NCBI GenBank assembly: GCA_015484905.1
Contig: WFUN01000082.1
Coordinates: 1-38,048 of the forward strand
DNA from: Hydrogenimonas sp.
GTDB lineage: Bacteria > Campylobacterota > Campylobacteria > Campylobacterales > Hydrogenimonadaceae
Direction of reading: 5' to 3'
DNA: 38,048 nucleotides
Shown piece after piece: positions 26,146 through 37,835 of the stretch; position 1 is the stretch's first letter; every line of letters starts with the position of its first letter. The position numbers were made by a program, and so were the translations under genes. Below the pieces are notes generated by a model. It was not told the DNA's origin. It worked only from the letters and a program-made list of their open reading frames with translations, and made no database searches.

Positions 26146-26892
26146 ATGAAGAGGCTTACTTCACTACTGCTAAGTACTGCGACAGCTTCGTTGTTGATGG
26201 CTGGAAGCCATGGAGTGCATTGGGGATACAGCGGACATGCCGGCCCTGAAAACTGGGGCAACCTTTCTGACAAATATATTATGTGCAAGCTTGGTAAAAA
26301 CCAGTCTCCAATAGATATAAAAACCGACAAAGCGTTTGATGCCGATCTGCCGACCATTGGAATAGATTACAAATCTGCTTCCAAGGAGGAGTTGAACAAT
26401 GGACATACCGTACAGGTAAACATAGTTCCGGGAAGCAGCATAACGGTAGATGGAATAAAATTCGAGCTAAAACAGTTTCATTTCCATACTCCAAGCGAAA
26501 ATACCATAGATGGACAATATTTTCCACTCGAAGCGCATTTTGTCCATGCCGATGAAAATGGAAATCTTGCTGTAATTGGTGTAATGTTCAAATATGGCGC
26601 CGAAAACGAAGTAATCAAAAAAGTCTGGGAAGAGATGCCAGAGCATGCGAATGATGTAGAAAAGATTACTCTTTCAGCTGAAGATGTAAAAAATATTTTA
26701 CCCAAAAACAGAGAGTATTATCGGTTCAACGGTTCTTTGACTACTCCACCTTGTTCGGAAGGTGTTCGCTGGTTCGTTATGAAACAGCCTGTTACCATAA
26801 GCAAAGAGCAGGTCAAAAAGTTTGCCGATGTAATGCACCATCCCAATAACCGACCAGTTCAACCGATCAACGCACGTGTGATTTTGAAATAA
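26146..26892 (+). CDS. Alpha-carbonic anhydrase, periplasmic
   Basis: 248 residues with a signal peptide (MKRLTSLLLSTATASLLMAG). Zinc ligands are H112 and H114 (FHFHTPSEN) and H131 (EAHFVH). The proton-shuttle histidine H87 lies in NNGHTV, and C47 and C203 (TTPPCSEG) can form the conserved disulfide. All catalytic positions are intact. It interconverts CO2 and bicarbonate in the periplasm, useful for supplying a CO2-fixing cell or for acid tolerance as in Helicobacter. AAGGGGA lies just upstream of the ATG. Transcription is probably independent, between its own promoter and a strong terminator. Confidence 0.97.
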   Translation: MKRLTSLLLSTATASLLMAGSHGVHWGYSGHAGPENWGNLSDKYIMCKLGKNQSPIDIKTDKAFDADLPTIGIDYKSASKEELNNGHTVQVNIVPGSSITVDGIKFELKQFHFHTPSENTIDGQYFPLEAHFVHADENGNLAVIGVMFKYGAENEVIKKVWEEMPEHANDVEKITLSAEDVKNILPKNREYYRFNGSLTTPPCSEGVRWFVMKQPVTISKEQVKKFADVMHHPNNRPVQPINARVILK

Positions 26893-27714: not shown

Positions 27715-28512
27715 ATGAAAAGTTTTTTTTTGAGTATGTCCCTTTTACCGATAATGGTATATGCTCAGATACATTATGCAAAGCTTGAACCTGTAGAGAC
27801 CTATCCGGTCAAATCGGAAGTGAGCGGAAAAGTCGTTTTTGCAGATGAATCCAAAGAGGGACAGATAGGGGGCTTTGCACCTATTGTAAAGATTGATGAT
27901 TATGTCGACAAAGAGCAAAGAGAGGCTTTGAACGTAGCTCTCGATGTACTCAAAAAGACACTTGTTCTTACGAACGAGATGATAGAAAACCAGAAGAGGG
28001 TCTATCTGCGCGACAAGAACTACTATGAGCGTATAAAGGAGCTGAAGACAAAATCGAAAACCGAAAAAGACCGGATATTTGCTACTATGACCGCATCGAA
28101 AAACCAGCTTATTTCTCTAAAAGAGAAAAAGATGACATTAAAAAGAGAGATTGCAGAAACCAGATACCAGCTTGCCCAGTTGAACGACAGAATAGAGAAG
28201 AAGTCCGTTGGCGCAGAAGGGCTGTATATCTATAAAGTGGCTGTTCGTAAAGGAGATTATGTAAATCCCGGAGTGCTTCTGTTTACAGCCATGGATACAA
28301 AAAGAGGTAAACTGGTACTCTTTCTGGATGCCGATGAAGTCGAGAATCTGGATTCAAAAAAGATTTATCTAAACGAAAAAGAGACGAATCTTAAATTCTC
28401 CAAAGTGTTGAAGATAGCAGACAATGTACACATATCTTCCTACAGAGCCGAAATAGTGCTTGACAAACCTGAAGGGCTCTTTTCGAAACTAATAAAAGTG
28501 GAGATAAAATGA
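27715..28512 (+). CDS. HlyD-like periplasmic adaptor (membrane fusion) protein
   Basis: 265 residues. A signal peptide (MKSFFLSMSLLPIMVYAQ) replaces the usual N-terminal membrane anchor. A first half-lipoyl motif (YPVKSEVSGKVVFADESKEGQIGGFAPIVKID, about 31-62) is followed by a charged coiled coil (about 68-160) and the second half-lipoyl motif (YIYKVAVRKGDYVNPGVLLFTAMD). This is the adaptor layout of RND, ABC or MFS tripartite pumps, but the beta-barrel and membrane-proximal parts are short. The TolC-like partner gene lies 2.9 kb downstream in the same run; no pump gene is between them. Its stop overlaps the next start (ATGA). Confidence 0.75.
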   Translation: MKSFFLSMSLLPIMVYAQIHYAKLEPVETYPVKSEVSGKVVFADESKEGQIGGFAPIVKIDDYVDKEQREALNVALDVLKKTLVLTNEMIENQKRVYLRDKNYYERIKELKTKSKTEKDRIFATMTASKNQLISLKEKKMTLKREIAETRYQLAQLNDRIEKKSVGAEGLYIYKVAVRKGDYVNPGVLLFTAMDTKRGKLVLFLDADEVENLDSKKIYLNEKETNLKFSKVLKIADNVHISSYRAEIVLDKPEGLFSKLIKVEIK

Positions 28513-30254
28513 AAGTTACCGCATGCCCCCTCGACTGTTACGACGCATGTGCAGTAGTTGTAGACCCTGATAGCCTCAAGATGACCGGACTCGAGCACCA
28601 CCCTTTTACGAGAGGAGCTTTATGTGCACATCTTAACAGGCACTATAAAGAGGCCGAGCGTATATGCAAACCGAGGGTTGATGGCGAAACGGTTTCCATG
28701 GATGAAGCTTTGAGCGCAGCTGCAAAAGCCGTAAAATATGCCGGAGAGGATTTTCTGCTCTACAGAGGAAGCGGGAATGTCGGTTTTATGCAGGCGATTA
28801 CCGAACATTTCGCTGCAGCTTATGGCGGATGGACAACCGAAGGATCGCTGTGTGATGGTTCCGGGCAGGCCGGAGTGGAGGCGGGACGCGGTCTTTCTCT
28901 CGCCCTTCCTCCAGAGTCTATCGAGCAGGCCGATGCTGTAGTTGTGTGGGGACGAAACATAACTGTGACCAATGTCCATATGGCTCGACTTTTAAAAAAC
29001 AAGACTCTAATAGTCATAGATCCTGTCAGGACAAAAATAGCGAAAGAGGCCGATCTTTTTTTGCAGATACGCCCGCGCAGCGATTTCTATCTTGCTGTAC
29101 TGCTTGCACGTTTTATGTTCATGGAAGATATGGAAGATAGAGCTTTTATGGAGAACAGATGCGAAGATGCAGAGTGGTACTACGATTTTCTCAGAACGTT
29201 CAGAATAAAAGCTTCACTCAAAAAGTGTGATATAAAACTTGACGATCTGGGAGATCTTTTATATCAGATGCAGAATAAAAGAACCGTCTTTTTGGTCGGC
29301 ACCGGGGTTCAGAAGTATTCCATAGGAGATCAGGTTCTTCATGCTATCGATGGGCTTGCCGCAGTTTTGGGCTTTTTTGGAAAACCCGGCTGCGGAGTGA
29401 GTTTTCTTTCCGATTCGACTGCGGGCTTTCGTCTTCCGTTCAACTTTTCAAAAAAAAGATGCGCCAAACCTGTAGCTCCTTTTGGACGTTTTAAAACCGT
29501 ATTGGTACAGGGAGCCAACCCCCTTGCACAGATGCCGGGGCTTGCCAGAGTCGAAGAGGAGATCGCTAAAGTACAGAATCTTATCTACTTCGGTCTGTAT
29601 GAGAATGAAACAAGCCGGAAGGCCAAAATCGTGATACCGGCAAAAGATTTTCTTGAAAAAGAAGATCTGCGACTCAGTTATGGCCACCCTTATGTGCAGC
29701 GTATGCCGAAGATAAAAGACGCAAAATTCGGTATAAGCGAATATGAGTTGACAAAATTTCTTTTCGATACTCTTTGTCTCGAAGGACTCAGAGAGGAGCG
29801 TTACTATATAGATTATATGCTCGATCAATGTATCGAAGAGAATGAGTTTCTCAGATCTCCGGCATATAGCGACCATCCTTATGTAGAGGAGTTTTATACC
29901 GATAGTGGCAATTTCGAATTTTTGGAAGAGTTCGAAGACGACTTCGATGAAGAAGAAGAGGGGTTTTGGCTGCTTACACCAAAGAGTCAACACTCTCTAA
30001 ACAGTCAGTTCAGGCGTCAGGATTTCGTAATGCTTCATCCCTCTAACGGCTTTAAGCAGGGCGAACTTGTACGCATATATTCGGAATATGGAGAGGTCAG
30101 GTTGCCTGTGAAAGTCAGTGAAGATGTTCGCAAAGACAGCGTCTTGATATATGCTGGCACTCCGGGAGTGAACTATCTCACTCCGCCCATGAAGAGCCTG
30201 ATGGGCAAAAGTGCATGTTACCAGGAGGTAAAAGTGAAAGTGGAAAGGATATAG
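28509..30254 (+). CDS. Molybdopterin oxidoreductase, cytoplasmic, substrate unknown
   Basis: 581 residues. The N-terminal 4Fe-4S motif is C6-C10-C14-C39 (CPLDCYDAC ... GALC). LLYRGSGNVG and GSLCDGSGQAG follow; C115 in the latter lines up with the metal-ligand cysteine of nitrate reductases such as NapA (HCMASAVAG), so Mo or W is probably Cys-ligated. VWGRNITVTNVHMARLL and FGLYENETSRKAKIVIPAKDFLEKED are cofactor-binding blocks. A C-terminal molydop-binding domain (VMLHPSNGFKQGELVRIYSEYGEVRLPVKV) closes the protein. No Tat signal, so cytoplasmic. It is shorter than most family members and has an acidic patch around 478-496. Formate dehydrogenase-like or oxoanion reductase activity are both possible. 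It abuts the ArgD gene with no gap. Confidence 0.85.
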   Translation: MKVTACPLDCYDACAVVVDPDSLKMTGLEHHPFTRGALCAHLNRHYKEAERICKPRVDGETVSMDEALSAAAKAVKYAGEDFLLYRGSGNVGFMQAITEHFAAAYGGWTTEGSLCDGSGQAGVEAGRGLSLALPPESIEQADAVVVWGRNITVTNVHMARLLKNKTLIVIDPVRTKIAKEADLFLQIRPRSDFYLAVLLARFMFMEDMEDRAFMENRCEDAEWYYDFLRTFRIKASLKKCDIKLDDLGDLLYQMQNKRTVFLVGTGVQKYSIGDQVLHAIDGLAAVLGFFGKPGCGVSFLSDSTAGFRLPFNFSKKRCAKPVAPFGRFKTVLVQGANPLAQMPGLARVEEEIAKVQNLIYFGLYENETSRKAKIVIPAKDFLEKEDLRLSYGHPYVQRMPKIKDAKFGISEYELTKFLFDTLCLEGLREERYYIDYMLDQCIEENEFLRSPAYSDHPYVEEFYTDSGNFEFLEEFEDDFDEEEEGFWLLTPKSQHSLNSQFRRQDFVMLHPSNGFKQGELVRIYSEYGEVRLPVKVSEDVRKDSVLIYAGTPGVNYLTPPMKSLMGKSACYQEVKVKVERI

Positions 30255-31436
30255 ATGACTCTTCAGGAGATTGATAAAAATTATGTTTTACAGACGTACT
30301 CCAGAAACTACGTCAACTTTGTCAAAGGGCGAAACTCTGTTTTGTACGATGCTGATGGAAAAGAGTATATTGATTTTGGAAGTGGAATAGCGGTTTGCAG
30401 TGTCGGACACGCAAATCCGAGGCTTGCAAATGCAATATGTGATCAGGCTTCCAAACTGATACATGTTTCAAACCTTTATCTTATAGAGCATCAGGCCCTT
30501 CTGGCCAAAAGATTGGCGGATTTGAGCGGTTACGATGTGGCGACATTTTTTGCCAACAGCGGAGCGGAGGCCAATGAAGGTGCCATAAAGATGGCAAGGA
30601 AGTATGGAGAAGTGGAAGGAGAGGTAAAACGTTACAAGATAATAACTCTCGAACACTCTTTTCATGGCCGTACGATCACGGCTTTGAAAGCTACGGGTCA
30701 GGAGTCGATGCATAACTATTTTGGTCCGTTCCCCGATGGTTTCGTATATGCCAGAGACATACGACATGTTTATGATTTGATAGACGATCATACCGTAGCC
30801 GTAATGATCGAACTCGTACAGGGTGAGGGCGGTGTTCAGCCAATGGACAAAGATGAGGTAAGAGAGCTGGCATCGATGCTGAAAAGAGAGGATATTCTTC
30901 TTGTTGTCGACGAGGTACAGACCGGCATATACCGAACCGGTGAGGTGCTGGCAAGCAATCTTTACGAGATAACGCCCGATATCATCACTCTTGCCAAAGG
31001 GCTTGGTGGCGGTGTACCGATAGGCGCTGTCATGACAACACATAAAGATATACTTAAAATTGGAGAACACGGCAGTACGTTCGGAGGCAACTTTCTTTCG
31101 ACAAGAGCCGCATTGGAAGTGCTCGATATTTTGGAAGAGCATAAAGAGAGCGGAGAGCTGGATCATATGCTGCTGCTTTTTGAAAAGAGACTGAAACATA
31201 TCGCTTCTTGCAATCCTGCTATTTTTGAAAAGGAGGTAGGTGTCGGTTTTATGAGAGGGCTTCGTGTTAACGAAGGATATGACGCCAAAGATATTATTGA
31301 AGCAGCATTCGAAGAGGGTGTCGTTGTTTTAAAAGCCGGAAAAAATACGGTGCGTTTTCTACCTGTACTTACGATTACGAAAGAGGAGATGGAACTTGGC
31401 TTCGAGCGCTTCGAACGTGCCCTTTCTCATTTGTAG
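30255..31436 (+). CDS. argD: Acetylornithine aminotransferase family (ArgD-like), class III PLP enzyme
   Basis: 393 residues. FFANSGAEANEGAIKMARK (98-116) binds PLP phosphate; EHSFHGRT, VDEVQTGIYRTG (D219) and LAKGLGGGVPIGAVM with the Schiff-base K248 complete the active site. FGPFPDGF and STFGGNFLSTRAALEVL are typical of acetylornithine/succinyldiaminopimelate aminotransferases in arginine and lysine synthesis. Length matches ArgD. The start directly follows the oxidoreductase stop. Its 3' end overlaps the TolC-like gene by about 41 nt. Substrate is assigned from overall similarity; a 4-aminobutyrate-type activity is less likely. Confidence 0.92.
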   Translation: MTLQEIDKNYVLQTYSRNYVNFVKGRNSVLYDADGKEYIDFGSGIAVCSVGHANPRLANAICDQASKLIHVSNLYLIEHQALLAKRLADLSGYDVATFFANSGAEANEGAIKMARKYGEVEGEVKRYKIITLEHSFHGRTITALKATGQESMHNYFGPFPDGFVYARDIRHVYDLIDDHTVAVMIELVQGEGGVQPMDKDEVRELASMLKREDILLVVDEVQTGIYRTGEVLASNLYEITPDIITLAKGLGGGVPIGAVMTTHKDILKIGEHGSTFGGNFLSTRAALEVLDILEEHKESGELDHMLLLFEKRLKHIASCNPAIFEKEVGVGFMRGLRVNEGYDAKDIIEAAFEEGVVVLKAGKNTVRFLPVLTITKEEMELGFERFERALSHL

Positions 31437-32619
31437 TCTGCTCTTTACCATTACTATATGCTTTGGTAAAGAACCTTATACGCTGCTTTCGACGCTTAAA
31501 GAGAAATCATTCGAATTTCAACAACGAAAAAATGCTGCAGAGAGCAGTCAACTCGAATACAGCTGGATCAACCCAATCACAATAGGATACGACTACTCAT
31601 ATTCAAACCAGTTCGATCGTACCCAAATAAACCGTTCGTTCTCCGTAAGAGTCGATCAACCTATCTTCAAGAGTGGAGGAATCTGGTATGCCGTCAAATA
31701 CGCAAAAGCTTCTTTTAAAGTTGGTGATCTCGGTATTGAGAGTCAACGCAAAAGCTTGATAAAACAGGCTGTCGCTTCGCTCTTCAATATAAAAAAAAGC
31801 GAATACCAGATTGACAAACAAAAACTGCTCGTAGAAAACGACAGAATCGATATCGAACGTAAAAAAGAGCAGTACATGAGTGGCGATTTGGACGGTAGTT
31901 TTCTGGATCAGGCTATTCTTCAAAAAAACAGAGACATGATGACACTTTTTTCTCTGCAAGAGAGTCTCGCGCTTCTTAGAAAAAATTTTGCCGATCTTAG
32001 CGATATGGATCCTGAAAAAGTGAAGCTTCCACACTTTTCGCTCGTTGAAAAAAAGAGATTCATAGATACAAATATAGATCTTGCGCTTCGCAGAGAGCAG
32101 ATCGCTCAAAAAGAGTATTTCAACATATTGACGTTGACAAAATATCTGCCCACACTCTCTTTGCAGGGCGCGTGGATTAAACCATTCAAAAACGGATTGA
32201 TTTACCTTAGCGGCTATCCGAACGTTGCGAAATCTTATTATACGTACGGATTCAGAGCCTCTTTGCCTATCGATATAACTTCATATCATACGATAGAGTC
32301 TTCAAGAGTCGATTACCTGCGGGCCAAGATAGAGTTGAGCGATAAAAAGGTCGAGGCGGAAAACCTTTACAAATCAGTCCTGAGCCGTTTGGAAGTCATC
32401 GACAAAAAGCTGGCTCTTGCAAAAGAGGATGAGGATCTATATACGAACCTCGTGAAAAAAACAAAAGAGAAGGTGGAGGCCGGTGAAATGACCATATATG
32501 ATCTAAAAACTATGGAAAACTCCAGATCGATCCGTCAGATAGATCAAAAAATCTACAAGATCGAAAGGCAGCTGGTTTTGCTCGATCTTTATGAAAAGAT
32601 GTATGATGATTCCGTTTAG
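31396..32619 (+). CDS. TolC-family outer-membrane efflux protein
   Basis: About 407 residues. The start is uncertain: TTG 31396 has AAGAGGAG (31381-31388) 7 nt upstream, whereas GTG 31417 would give a shorter signal peptide (PFLICSLLFTITICFG). Both lie within argD, so translation is coupled. The body has the TolC pattern: helical repeats rich in Glu, Lys and Ser, AAESSQLEYSWINPITIGYDYSYSNQ at the first strand, and the second repeat NILTLTKYLPTLSLQGAWIKPF. It would form the outer-membrane exit for the HlyD-like adaptor encoded upstream. It is somewhat shorter than classical TolC. Confidence 0.8.
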   Translation: MASSASNVPFLICSLLFTITICFGKEPYTLLSTLKEKSFEFQQRKNAAESSQLEYSWINPITIGYDYSYSNQFDRTQINRSFSVRVDQPIFKSGGIWYAVKYAKASFKVGDLGIESQRKSLIKQAVASLFNIKKSEYQIDKQKLLVENDRIDIERKKEQYMSGDLDGSFLDQAILQKNRDMMTLFSLQESLALLRKNFADLSDMDPEKVKLPHFSLVEKKRFIDTNIDLALRREQIAQKEYFNILTLTKYLPTLSLQGAWIKPFKNGLIYLSGYPNVAKSYYTYGFRASLPIDITSYHTIESSRVDYLRAKIELSDKKVEAENLYKSVLSRLEVIDKKLALAKEDEDLYTNLVKKTKEKVEAGEMTIYDLKTMENSRSIRQIDQKIYKIERQLVLLDLYEKMYDDSV

Positions 32620-33616
32620 CGAATATATGAACGAGTGGCTGTACGGGCCTGAAGGTTATTATACGCTCTACAATAAAATCGGAAAAGAGGGGGATTTCTA
32701 TACGGCTGTAAGCACCAGTCGTTTTTTTGGAGCGACAATAGCCCACTATCTGATCACGCTTGTGAAGCAAGAAAAGATTTCGCCATACTGTTCGGTTGTG
32801 GAGATTGGTGCGCACAAGGGGTATCTTCTTGGCGATATGGTCGAATGGATAGCGCAGGAAGCTCCAGAGTTGCTCGAGACAATCAGTTTTGCAATAATCG
32901 AGAGGCAATCCGGGCTTCAAAGAATTCAAAAAGAGCATTTCAAAGATCGGTTTGGAGAAGATATTGAGTTGATACACTTTTCAGATCCAAGGCAATTGAA
33001 GAGAAAAGAGGCTTTTATGGTGGCAAACGAGATTTTCGACTCTTTTCCGTGCGATCTTGTCTACAATGGTAAAACGGCTGTAGTTGATATGAAAAAAGAG
33101 AAGCACGATATACGTTTTGAAGCGTGCGATGATCAACCATTGAATATCTCGAAAAGATATGGACAGACAAAAGGAGAGGTTGCACGCGGTTATGAAGCTT
33201 TTGCCGCATCTGTTTATGAAGCTGCGCATAAGATGGTTTTTGTATCGTTCGATTATGGCGATAAAGAGGTAAGAAACGATTTTTCCATACGAATATACAA
33301 AGATCATGAAGTCATCCCGCTTTTTGAAAAAGGTATAGACCTGAAGTCTTTTTTCAAAAAAAGCGATATAACCTATGATGTAAACTTTTCACATCTTATA
33401 GATGCCTTCGTCGATGCGGGCTTTGAGCTATATGCGTACAAAACGCAATTACGCGCGCTTGTAGAGTATGGTCTTCCCTATCTCATAGAAAAACTCGCGC
33501 AACTTGGCAATCAGAGACTATATTTAAAAGAGATCAACAAAATAAAAACCTTAATCGATCCTACAATTATGGGAGAGCGTTTCAAACTTGTTGAATTTCA
33601 TAAGAATATTGGTTAG
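32591..33616 (+). CDS. MidA/NDUFAF7-type SAM-dependent methyltransferase (DUF185)
   Basis: 341 residues; alternative ATGs at 32603 and 32606 fit the conserved start IPFSEYMNEWLYGPEGYYT. KIGKEGDFYTAVSTSRFFGATIA and VVEIGAHKGYLLGDM (SAM-binding motif I) are typical of the family, as are VANEIFDSFPCDLVY and FVSFDYGD. The mitochondrial homologue NDUFAF7 methylates an arginine of a complex I subunit; bacterial substrates are not established. It overlaps the TolC-like gene by up to 29 nt, indicating tight coupling. No frameshift is visible. Confidence 0.85.
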   Translation: MKRCMMIPFSEYMNEWLYGPEGYYTLYNKIGKEGDFYTAVSTSRFFGATIAHYLITLVKQEKISPYCSVVEIGAHKGYLLGDMVEWIAQEAPELLETISFAIIERQSGLQRIQKEHFKDRFGEDIELIHFSDPRQLKRKEAFMVANEIFDSFPCDLVYNGKTAVVDMKKEKHDIRFEACDDQPLNISKRYGQTKGEVARGYEAFAASVYEAAHKMVFVSFDYGDKEVRNDFSIRIYKDHEVIPLFEKGIDLKSFFKKSDITYDVNFSHLIDAFVDAGFELYAYKTQLRALVEYGLPYLIEKLAQLGNQRLYLKEINKIKTLIDPTIMGERFKLVEFHKNIG

Positions 33617-33626
33617 AATAGATCCC

Positions 33627-34220
33627 ATGAAGAGAGTGTTTTTTATCCTGTTGTTGATATTTTCAATCTCAGTTTATGCCGATGACGTCAACGGATGGGG
33701 GCCGTTGCATGAAGCCGTCTATGCAAAAGATATGAAAAAAGTGGAAAGCATAGTCGAAAAAAAGGGGTGCGATATAAACGTGCAGTCCAAAGCGGGGATC
33801 TCTCCTTTGCACATTGCCGTCAAAACCAGAAATGTGAAAATGGTGGACTATCTGCTTGCTCATGGAGCGGATGTCGATATTCAGGACAATAACGGCTATA
33901 CTCCTTTACACTATGCCGTCTCTCAGCACAGGGTGAAGATCGTGCGGTCGCTTGTGCATCATGAGGCAGATACGAATCTGGCGAATAACGCCGGTATTAC
34001 ACCTTTGCAGCAGGCGGCATACAGTAACGATTTTGCCATAGCCGACTTTTTGCTTAAAAACGGTGCCGACCCGGAGCTCAAAAGCCTCGAAGGGGTAAAT
34101 GCGTGTGAACTGGCCTACGTTAAAGGAAACTATGCAATGGCGGATTACCTGAAATCCTTTACTATAGGAGAGTGTGGTATATATGCCGATGATTTGAAAA
34201 GAGTGGGGGAACAAAGATGA
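33627..34220 (+). CDS. Exported ankyrin-repeat protein
   Basis: 197 residues from ATG 33627, with a signal peptide (MKRVFFILLLIFSISVYADD). About four and a half ankyrin repeats of 33 residues follow: GWGPLHEAVYAKDMKKVESIV, AGISPLHIAVKTRNVKMVDYLL, NGYTPLHYAVSQHRVKIVRSLV, AGITPLQQAAYSNDFAIADFLL, and a weaker last one. Periplasmic ankyrin proteins are often linked to peroxide defence (AnkB next to catalase), but no such partner is adjacent here. It is 10 nt after the methyltransferase and overlaps thiS (ATGA). No strong ribosome-binding site; an upstream in-frame ATG at 33588 lies inside the methyltransferase gene. Confidence 0.9.
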   Translation: MKRVFFILLLIFSISVYADDVNGWGPLHEAVYAKDMKKVESIVEKKGCDINVQSKAGISPLHIAVKTRNVKMVDYLLAHGADVDIQDNNGYTPLHYAVSQHRVKIVRSLVHHEADTNLANNAGITPLQQAAYSNDFAIADFLLKNGADPELKSLEGVNACELAYVKGNYAMADYLKSFTIGECGIYADDLKRVGEQR

Positions 34221-34417
34221 ATGTAACCGTCAATGGCGAAGAGAGAAAGTTTGAAAAAGGTATGACGCTCGAGCAGATAATGAGTGAGCTTGGAGTTGCC
34301 GGAAAAGTTATGGCGGCGGCTGTAAATATGCAAGTGGTGAAAAAAGAGGAGTGGGAGAGCTTTTCTCCAAAAGAGGGAGACAGAATAGAGCTTCTACACT
34401 TTGTCGGCGGAGGCTGA
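34217..34417 (+). CDS. thiS: Sulfur carrier protein ThiS
   Basis: 66 residues with the ubiquitin-like ThiS fold: MNVTVNGEERKF, MTLEQIMSELGV, VMAAAVNMQVVKKEEW, and GDRIELLHFVGGG, ending in the required C-terminal Gly-Gly that is thiocarboxylated for thiazole synthesis. GGGGGA lies 7 nt upstream of the ATG, within the ankyrin gene. No other thi gene is in the window. Its 3' end overlaps acpS on the opposite strand by 24 nt. Confidence 0.92.
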   Translation: MNVTVNGEERKFEKGMTLEQIMSELGVAGKVMAAAVNMQVVKKEEWESFSPKEGDRIELLHFVGGG

Positions 34418-35483: not shown

Positions 35484-36284
35484 ATGATGTGGATTGAGAC
35501 CTTCTTTGGATGGATCGGCAGGCCGTTTGTGCAACTTTATGAGTTGATGAACGGTTTCGGACGCTTTATAGAGTTTCAGCTATCACTCATTCCGCTATAT
35601 TTCAAACGCCCATACCGAATAAGAGAGTTTTTCCAACAGATGGAGAGTATAGGCATAGGGACTCTCGGAGTCATCTTGCTTACAGCTCTGTTTACGGGCA
35701 TGGTCGAAGCGATACAGCTCTATCACGGGTTCCACCGATTCGGTGCGGAAAACTTTATGGGTTATACAATATTCGTCTCCATTTCAAGAGAGTTGGGTCC
35801 GGTATTTGCCGCTTTGATGCTTACTTCGCGCGCTATCAGCGCCATGGCTGCCGAGCTTGGCACGATGCGTGTGACAGAGCAGATAGACGCCATAGAGACG
35901 CTGGCTGTGGACTCCAAAAAGTATCTTATAATTCCCCGTATACTTGCCACTACCATTTCGTTGCCATTGTTGGTTATAACTTTCGATTTCATAGGAAACG
36001 TAAGTGCATATTTTATCTCTACGAAAGCGCTTGGGGTAAATCCGATAGCCTACCAAAATACTATACAACAGTACCTGGAGTTTGCAGACATTGGTACAGG
36101 CGTCTTGAAGGCTTTCGTATTCGGATTTTTAGTCAGTTCTGTAGGAAGCTATCTTGGTTATATAGCCAAAGGCGGAGCGAGAGGCGTGGGCCTGGCCACT
36201 ACTTCTGCTGTCGTCTACTCTGCCGTTACGATATTCGCCGCAAACTATCTTCTCTCTTCTTTGTTTCTTTTTCTCGACTGGTAG
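35484..36284 (+). CDS. mlaE: MlaE-family phospholipid ABC transporter permease
   Basis: 266 residues with 5-6 membrane segments. FFQQMESIGIGTLGVILLTALFTGMVEAIQ, ELGPVFAALMLTSRAISAMAAELGTMRVTEQIDAIETLAVD (the MlaE EF-like loop with G-T-M-x-V-T-E-Q-I-D-A) and the GGARGVGLATTSAVV helix are all family-specific. MlaE works with MlaF (ATPase), MlaD and MlaB to move phospholipids for outer-membrane asymmetry. None of these follows; the next gene is on the other strand, so the transporter parts must be elsewhere. Start ATG 35484 or 35487. Confidence 0.93.
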   Translation: MMWIETFFGWIGRPFVQLYELMNGFGRFIEFQLSLIPLYFKRPYRIREFFQQMESIGIGTLGVILLTALFTGMVEAIQLYHGFHRFGAENFMGYTIFVSISRELGPVFAALMLTSRAISAMAAELGTMRVTEQIDAIETLAVDSKKYLIIPRILATTISLPLLVITFDFIGNVSAYFISTKALGVNPIAYQNTIQQYLEFADIGTGVLKAFVFGFLVSSVGSYLGYIAKGGARGVGLATTSAVVYSAVTIFAANYLLSSLFLFLDW

Positions 36285-37255: not shown

Positions 37256-37600
37256 CTATTCAAAATCCAGAATCAAAGAGACCAGTGCCTCTACTTCTAC
37301 CATCTCACTCTCTCTCAAAGATGCGATCTTTTCCGGCACTATGCGCCTTGAGTCGATGGCGCGTATCTGATCGCATAGCAGGTCCGAATCGCTTTTTAGT
37401 TTTGCGCGTTTTTCAATGCGCATACGCAGGGGGTACGCATCGTCTATCAGGTTGGTAGTCAAAGGCACTACGATAACCGTTGTATGGCCTACCTCGTTCA
37501 GCAGATCGCTCTGTAGTATCAAAACCGGGCGTACTTTGCCGGGCTCCGCACCTCTTGCAGGATTTAGTCTGGCAAGATATATCCCGCCTCTTTCAAACAT
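37256..37600 (-). CDS. MazF/PemK-type toxin (mRNA interferase family)
   Basis: 114 residues from ATG 37600 (MFERGGIYLARLNPARGAEPGKVRPVLILQSD, the MazF start); an in-frame ATG at 37615 adds five residues. GKVRPVLILQSD, TTVIVVPLTTN and SDLLCDQIRAIDSRRI are the three conserved blocks; the family's catalytic arginine (RPV) and threonine (PLT) are present. MazF toxins cut mRNA at short motifs. The start overlaps the antitoxin stop by 8 nt, giving coupled translation with antitoxin first. Confidence 0.93.
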   Translation of the reverse strand: MFERGGIYLARLNPARGAEPGKVRPVLILQSDLLNEVGHTTVIVVPLTTNLIDDAYPLRMRIEKRAKLKSDSDLLCDQIRAIDSRRIVPEKIASLRESEMVEVEALVSLILDFE

Positions 37601-37835
37601 TTTCGAGCCCGTCATTTAATATGTCTTCAAAAAGCTCCATTGTCTCACGGTTGCTTTCTCTAACACGCATCGAAGCGGCTTTGAACCGCTCTTTGAGTTT
37701 TTTGCGACGAATATAACGCTCATACTCCGTCACAGAACGGCGTATAAGTTCGCTCTTGGTAAGATGCAGCTCTTTTGCCAGTTCTGTAAGCTTGTCGAAA
37801 AAAGAGTCATCCGTTTTCAATGTTACAGTTTTCAT
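37593..37835 (-). CDS. Ribbon-helix-helix antitoxin of the MazF-type toxin
   Basis: 80 residues. The N-terminal strand MKTVTLKTDDSFFDKLTELAKELHLTKSELIRRSVTEY is a CopG/Arc-type ribbon-helix-helix DNA-binding domain. The charged C-terminal tail (NRETMELFEDILNDG) is the probable toxin-wrapping part. It would autoregulate the pair. AAAGGAT lies 6 nt upstream of the ATG at 37835. Located between pssA and an insertion-sequence fragment, consistent with horizontal acquisition. Confidence 0.88.
   Translation of the reverse strand: MKTVTLKTDDSFFDKLTELAKELHLTKSELIRRSVTEYERYIRRKKLKERFKAASMRVRESNRETMELFEDILNDGLENV

Follow-up and report, generated by a model that had tools for sequence, protein, structure and literature searches.

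Adaptor and channel genes in a metabolic operon of Hydrogenimonas sp. are very probably parts of a dispersed RND efflux system

In tripartite efflux systems of the RND type, the hairpin of the adaptor meets TolC and its barrel meets the pump. RND pump and adaptor genes generally lie in one operon, and the AcrAD-TolC system of E. coli is an RND tripartite system with its three genes at different loci (PMC8277102). HefABC of Helicobacter and CmeDEF of Campylobacter are further RND systems with an adaptor, a channel and a pump (PMC4790292, PMC4790245). Here we describe an adaptor gene and a tolC-like gene that lie together with genes of metabolic enzymes in Hydrogenimonas sp., and we consider which transporter they are likely to serve.

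Gene content of the operon

The window, i.e., the whole stretch of 38,048 nucleotides analysed here, contains seven plus-strand genes at positions 27715-34417 that are joined by overlaps or gaps of 10 nt or less:

27715..28512, plus strand: periplasmic adaptor, 265 aa; weak matches to HlyD_3 and RND_mfp (E 3e-6), both under the curated cut-offs
28509..30254, plus strand: MoBD, a cytoplasmic Mo/W-bis-PGD oxidoreductase, 581 aa; Molybdopterin and Molydop_binding domains
30255..31436, plus strand: ArgD, acetylornithine aminotransferase (arginine synthesis); TIGR00707, 412.9 bits, above cut-off
31396..32619, plus strand: TolC-like outer-membrane channel, 407 aa, TTG start; OEP PF02321, of the argD/midA-linked TolC group
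32606..33616 (longest ORF from 32591), plus strand: MidA-type SAM-dependent methyltransferase; Methyltransf_28 PF02636
33627..34220 (longest ORF from 33588), plus strand: exported ankyrin-repeat protein (Ank) with its own signal peptide from ATG 33627; ankyrin repeats
34217..34417, plus strand: ThiS sulfur carrier; TIGR01683, above cut-off

The gene identities were assigned with Pfam and NCBIfam models and agree with those of the initial annotation. In the TolC-like protein, PF02321 matches in two stretches (77.1 bits vs. a cut-off of 22), while MoBD has an N-terminal CxxxCxxxC motif and scores under the cut-off of every NCBIfam model. With the longest-start ORFs, the intergenic gaps along the chain are -4, 0, -41, -29, -29, and -4 nt; because the likelier starts of MidA (ATG 32606, chosen by comparison with relatives) and Ank (ATG 33627) give -14 and +10 in the last part of the chain, the spacing of 10 nt or less holds. 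No transporter gene was found inside the seven-gene operon, and the nearest one looked at encodes MlaE at 35484, past two minus-strand genes. The initial description of a seven-gene chain without a pump is therefore borne out by the ORFs, gaps, and domain calls. A scan for promoters and terminators performed no better than on shuffled sequences.

Elsewhere in the window, an alpha-type carbonic anhydrase with a signal peptide is encoded upstream of the operon (26146-26892), and two small overlapping minus-strand genes at 37256-37835 resemble, by eye, a MazF-type toxin and antitoxin.

The adaptor protein

The adaptor begins with the signal-peptide-like segment MKSFFLSMSLLPIMVYA followed by Q, and a lipobox is not evident. 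A start of this kind, which the initial annotation had read as a signal peptide in place of a membrane anchor, is not special to this locus: it is typical throughout the adaptor family, also of those members whose genes adjoin a pump gene. A PDB sequence search with the adaptor returned nothing useful, and the protein was therefore judged by its fold. In the AlphaFold model (pLDDT 87.2), the domain order is an alpha-hairpin (63-107/115-162) with a conserved tip (LKTKS), lipoyl halves, and a beta-barrel. In a Foldseek search of the PDB with this model, all 50 listed matches (lowest E 1.8e-12) were either periplasmic adaptors or entries of tripartite pumps; the best of them include MacA, and the fold agrees with solved adaptors of the MacA/AcrA type, at an identity of about 10-16% to the MacA/AcrA/MexA-fold matches. 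Close named relatives, in a search with a 7-row adaptor alignment, come from Hydrogenimonas MAGs, which assigns the window to this genus.

Hairpin, lipoyl domain, and beta-barrel thus follow the same order as in MacA, AcrA, and MexA, whereas the adaptor here appears to have a signal peptide rather than a lipoprotein or membrane anchor and, judging from the model, probably lacks the membrane-proximal domain, with the roughly 77 residues after the lipoyl domain leaving space for a single domain only. In AcrA-type systems the membrane-proximal domain contacts the pump, and its apparent absence counts against an RND partner. Relatives in which the adaptor gene adjoins a pump gene have an adaptor of equally small size, so the short form is a family trait. 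The adaptors of HefABC and CmeDEF are short as well.

RND pumps in Hydrogenimonas and its relatives

In a search of 120 relatives with the RND protein that adjoins a related adaptor in G052 (L100), the RND-pump subfamily was found in 84 genomes; the adaptor occurs in 82 of the relatives, all of them among those 84. Both are therefore present in 82 genomes and neither in 36; no genome has the adaptor only, and the two that have the pump only are incomplete drafts (completeness 87% and 80%). At the genus level there are no exceptions, with both present in 41 genera and neither in 12. When 31 adaptor-less genomes were queried with the C50 pump of the Hydrogenimonas genome itself (G000), the best RND protein reached at most 235 bits vs. 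about 700 or more for full-length pumps of the family, so the absence of the pump is no threshold effect. A strict 1:1 ratio of a single family pump to a single adaptor is seen in 27 genomes, which belong to families f18, f5, f16, f15, and f9.

The two genes are also linked in some relatives. The order is RND-adaptor-argD-tolC-midA in G110 (L173), the pump gene starts 0.9 kb from adaptor-MoBD in G041 (L180), and it lies about 5 kb from the adaptor in G116 (L171); in the RND tree, these three pumps group on the same side as the rsmH-linked ones, with a long branch for the G110 pump (support 91). Compact operons of pump, adaptor, and channel are found in G052, G100, G081, G105, G103, G038, and G116. 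Conversely, seven genomes (G036, G066, G078, G030, G033, G047, and G050) have argD and midA nearly abutting, with tolC, pump, and adaptor all absent. On the argD tree, the pump tracks the adaptor in all four well-supported independent switches (4/4, p 0.125); because there are only four, this test is unable to reach 0.05, and the switches support the pump-adaptor link, short of proof. In the adaptor and TolC trees, the dispersed and operon-borne sets split alike with moderate support. An identical split in all three trees was rejected, as operon-borne pumps sit in several lineages of the RND tree. The partner lineage is variable: the second-type pump described below is alone in G008, and the rsmH-linked type is missing from G052 and G114.

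In the Hydrogenimonas genome the subfamily has two members, encoded at C50:20398-23484 and C143:7331-10390. The former is a 1036-aa RND protein in an rsmH - ftsL-like - RND cluster near ftsA/ftsZ, and this cluster recurs in families f1, f18, f5, f16, f15, and f8. Neither pump shares a contig with the adaptor, so the usual co-encoding of pump and adaptor is not seen here; a search of both pump contigs found no TolC gene, and the adaptor of this family is a single copy genome-wide. Besides the adaptor with its hairpin, lipoyl, and beta-barrel domains and the TolC-family channel, the genome has a co-occurring RND (ACR_tran) pump.

In at least six families, rsmH and an ftsL-like gene are immediately followed by an RND pump gene, and ftsA/ftsZ, hemA, and proS are often close by (L153 8384-12782, with matching loci L158-L160, L164-L166, and L183-L186). 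The second pump of G000 (C143; L152 7328-10420) has neither adaptor nor TolC nearby, an arrangement that is conserved in the genus.

Given this gene content, the co-occurrence and joint absence of adaptor and pump, their linkage in relatives, and the adaptor fold, the adaptor and the TolC-like channel are very probably parts of a dispersed RND tripartite efflux system whose pump is encoded at another locus. That the pump is encoded elsewhere had been one of three options in the initial annotation, and it is supported by the phyletic profile, the 1:1 counts in 27 genomes, the linkage in G110, G041, and G116, and the joint deletions. The likeliest partner would be the proton-driven inner-membrane RND pump at C50:20398-23484, and the second pump, C143:7331-10390, probably shares the same adaptor/channel pair: in G008, a complete genome, adaptor and tolC occur with a second-type pump as the only family pump, which suggests that the pair may be able to serve this type too. 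In the assembled complex, the hairpin of the adaptor would contact the channel and the barrel would contact the pump, and substrates would be expelled from the cell envelope. The other proteins of the chain (MoBD, ArgD, MidA, Ank, and ThiS) are operon neighbours, not demonstrated partners.

It is highly improbable that the adaptor and channel instead work with an ABC or MFS transporter, such as the permease of the MlaE type encoded at 35484 or a different ABC system. MlaE is encoded about 1 kb past thiS, and also near the operon in families f1 and f18, but two minus-strand genes intervene and the examined regions of f5, f16, and f20 show no MlaE close to the operon, and we rejected it as the pump. 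Similarly, the adaptor gene of f15 has an ABC ATPase gene just before it (L066 and L068), but this neighbour is confined to that family. MacA, which ranks among the best structural matches, belongs to an ABC system; against this, presence of the RND subfamily matches presence of the adaptor in all genera, and the RND gene adjoins that of the adaptor wherever the operon is compact.

Operon neighbours and comparison with known systems

The order adaptor-MoBD-argD-tolC-midA-ank-thiS is kept through most of the genus Hydrogenimonas, and its first five genes recur in the same order in three other families, f18, f5 (G115), and f16 (G032 and G112), so the gene order is beyond chance. A two-block form, adaptor-MoBD plus argD-tolC-midA, is found in G040, G052, and G102, and MoBD is missing from the chain in G016, G008, G018, and G037. 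The argD-midA pair is the stable backbone that hosts the two efflux genes. The ankyrin-repeat gene (33627-34220 in the window) lies near midA in several families, even where the operon lacks adaptor and tolC (G080 and G100). A BatD-like gene is located 5' of the adaptor in three families, f21, f2, and f8 (L075 6547-8022, L076 9904-11397, and L101 7786-9261).

The initial annotation had also raised the options that the adaptor/channel pair serves a product of the enzymes, or that the gene order is a historical accident kept by operon structure. In the first case, the operon would be a metabolic-export unit, and what passes through adaptor and channel would be made, or detoxified, by the Mo-enzyme and/or ArgD. 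The adaptor and MoBD genes are indeed adjacent in seven families (f1, f5, f6, f9, f16, f18, and f20), their reading frames share an ATGA overlap indicative of translational coupling in the window, and by genome both are present in 59 and neither in 32, with the adaptor only in 23 and MoBD only in 6. By genus, however, both are present in 25, the adaptor only in 16, and MoBD only in 2, which also lack the pump; MoBD tracks the adaptor in only about 1/4 of the argD-tree switches. The adaptor is retained in G016 and G008 with MoBD located elsewhere, while G080, in which MoBD directly precedes argD and argD nearly abuts midA (MoBD-argD-midA), and the genomes of f20/g20 keep these three genes with adaptor, tolC, and pump absent. 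ArgD, too, is retained in lineages without any adaptor, and G100 has MoBD-argD-midA-ank without adaptor or tolC at that place and a separate tolC-RND-adaptor operon (L162 and L217). An export unit of this kind is therefore unlikely, and we consider it doubtful that the adaptor and the Mo-enzyme form a functional pair in which a toxic compound is converted by MoBD and exported by the dispersed RND/adaptor/TolC system, which, if true, would be a molybdoenzyme-coupled efflux pathway. Comparison of gene neighbourhoods, proposed initially as a check, found an RND gene beside or near the adaptor in relatives and the enzymes often absent, and by the refuting condition set there a functional linkage between enzymes and efflux is not supported, with adaptor and pump occurring without MoBD in 16 genera and the enzymes persisting without adaptor, tolC, and pump. 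Historical accident fits the argD-midA backbone; the adjacency of adaptor and MoBD in seven families is more than accident alone would predict. In G052, MoBD is interrupted by a stop or frameshift (L098). A specialised aminotransferase role for ArgD was rejected: it has an ordinary argD score and is present also without the adaptor.

If annotated by neighbourhood, the adaptor and channel would be linked to the chemistry of molybdenum or arginine, whereas the comparison shows them to go with a pump whose gene adjoins cell-division genes. The locus is a clear example of three RND-system genes that are scattered yet co-inherited in about twenty families within a single order. A candidate partner can be named for every orphan part, and two of these candidates are pumps that may use the same adaptor and channel. 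Scattered RND genes are already known; the present case differs in that neither family pump lies beside the adaptor and that adaptor and channel are part of a metabolic operon, an arrangement that our literature search, limited in reach, did not find.

As in AcrAD-TolC, pump, adaptor, and channel are encoded at separate loci, and more than one RND pump probably uses the same adaptor and channel. The shared adaptor of E. coli is still encoded next to a pump (acrAB), whereas neither family pump adjoins the adaptor here, the adaptor and tolC genes lie inside a metabolic operon, and the adaptor is short (265 aa). HefABC and CmeDEF belong to the same phylum, and the compact operons of the relatives described above are similar to them in layout; by analogy of phylum and layout, a relation of the present system to HefABC and CmeDEF is plausible, with the difference that its adaptor and tolC genes are dispersed and its likeliest pump is rsmH-linked.
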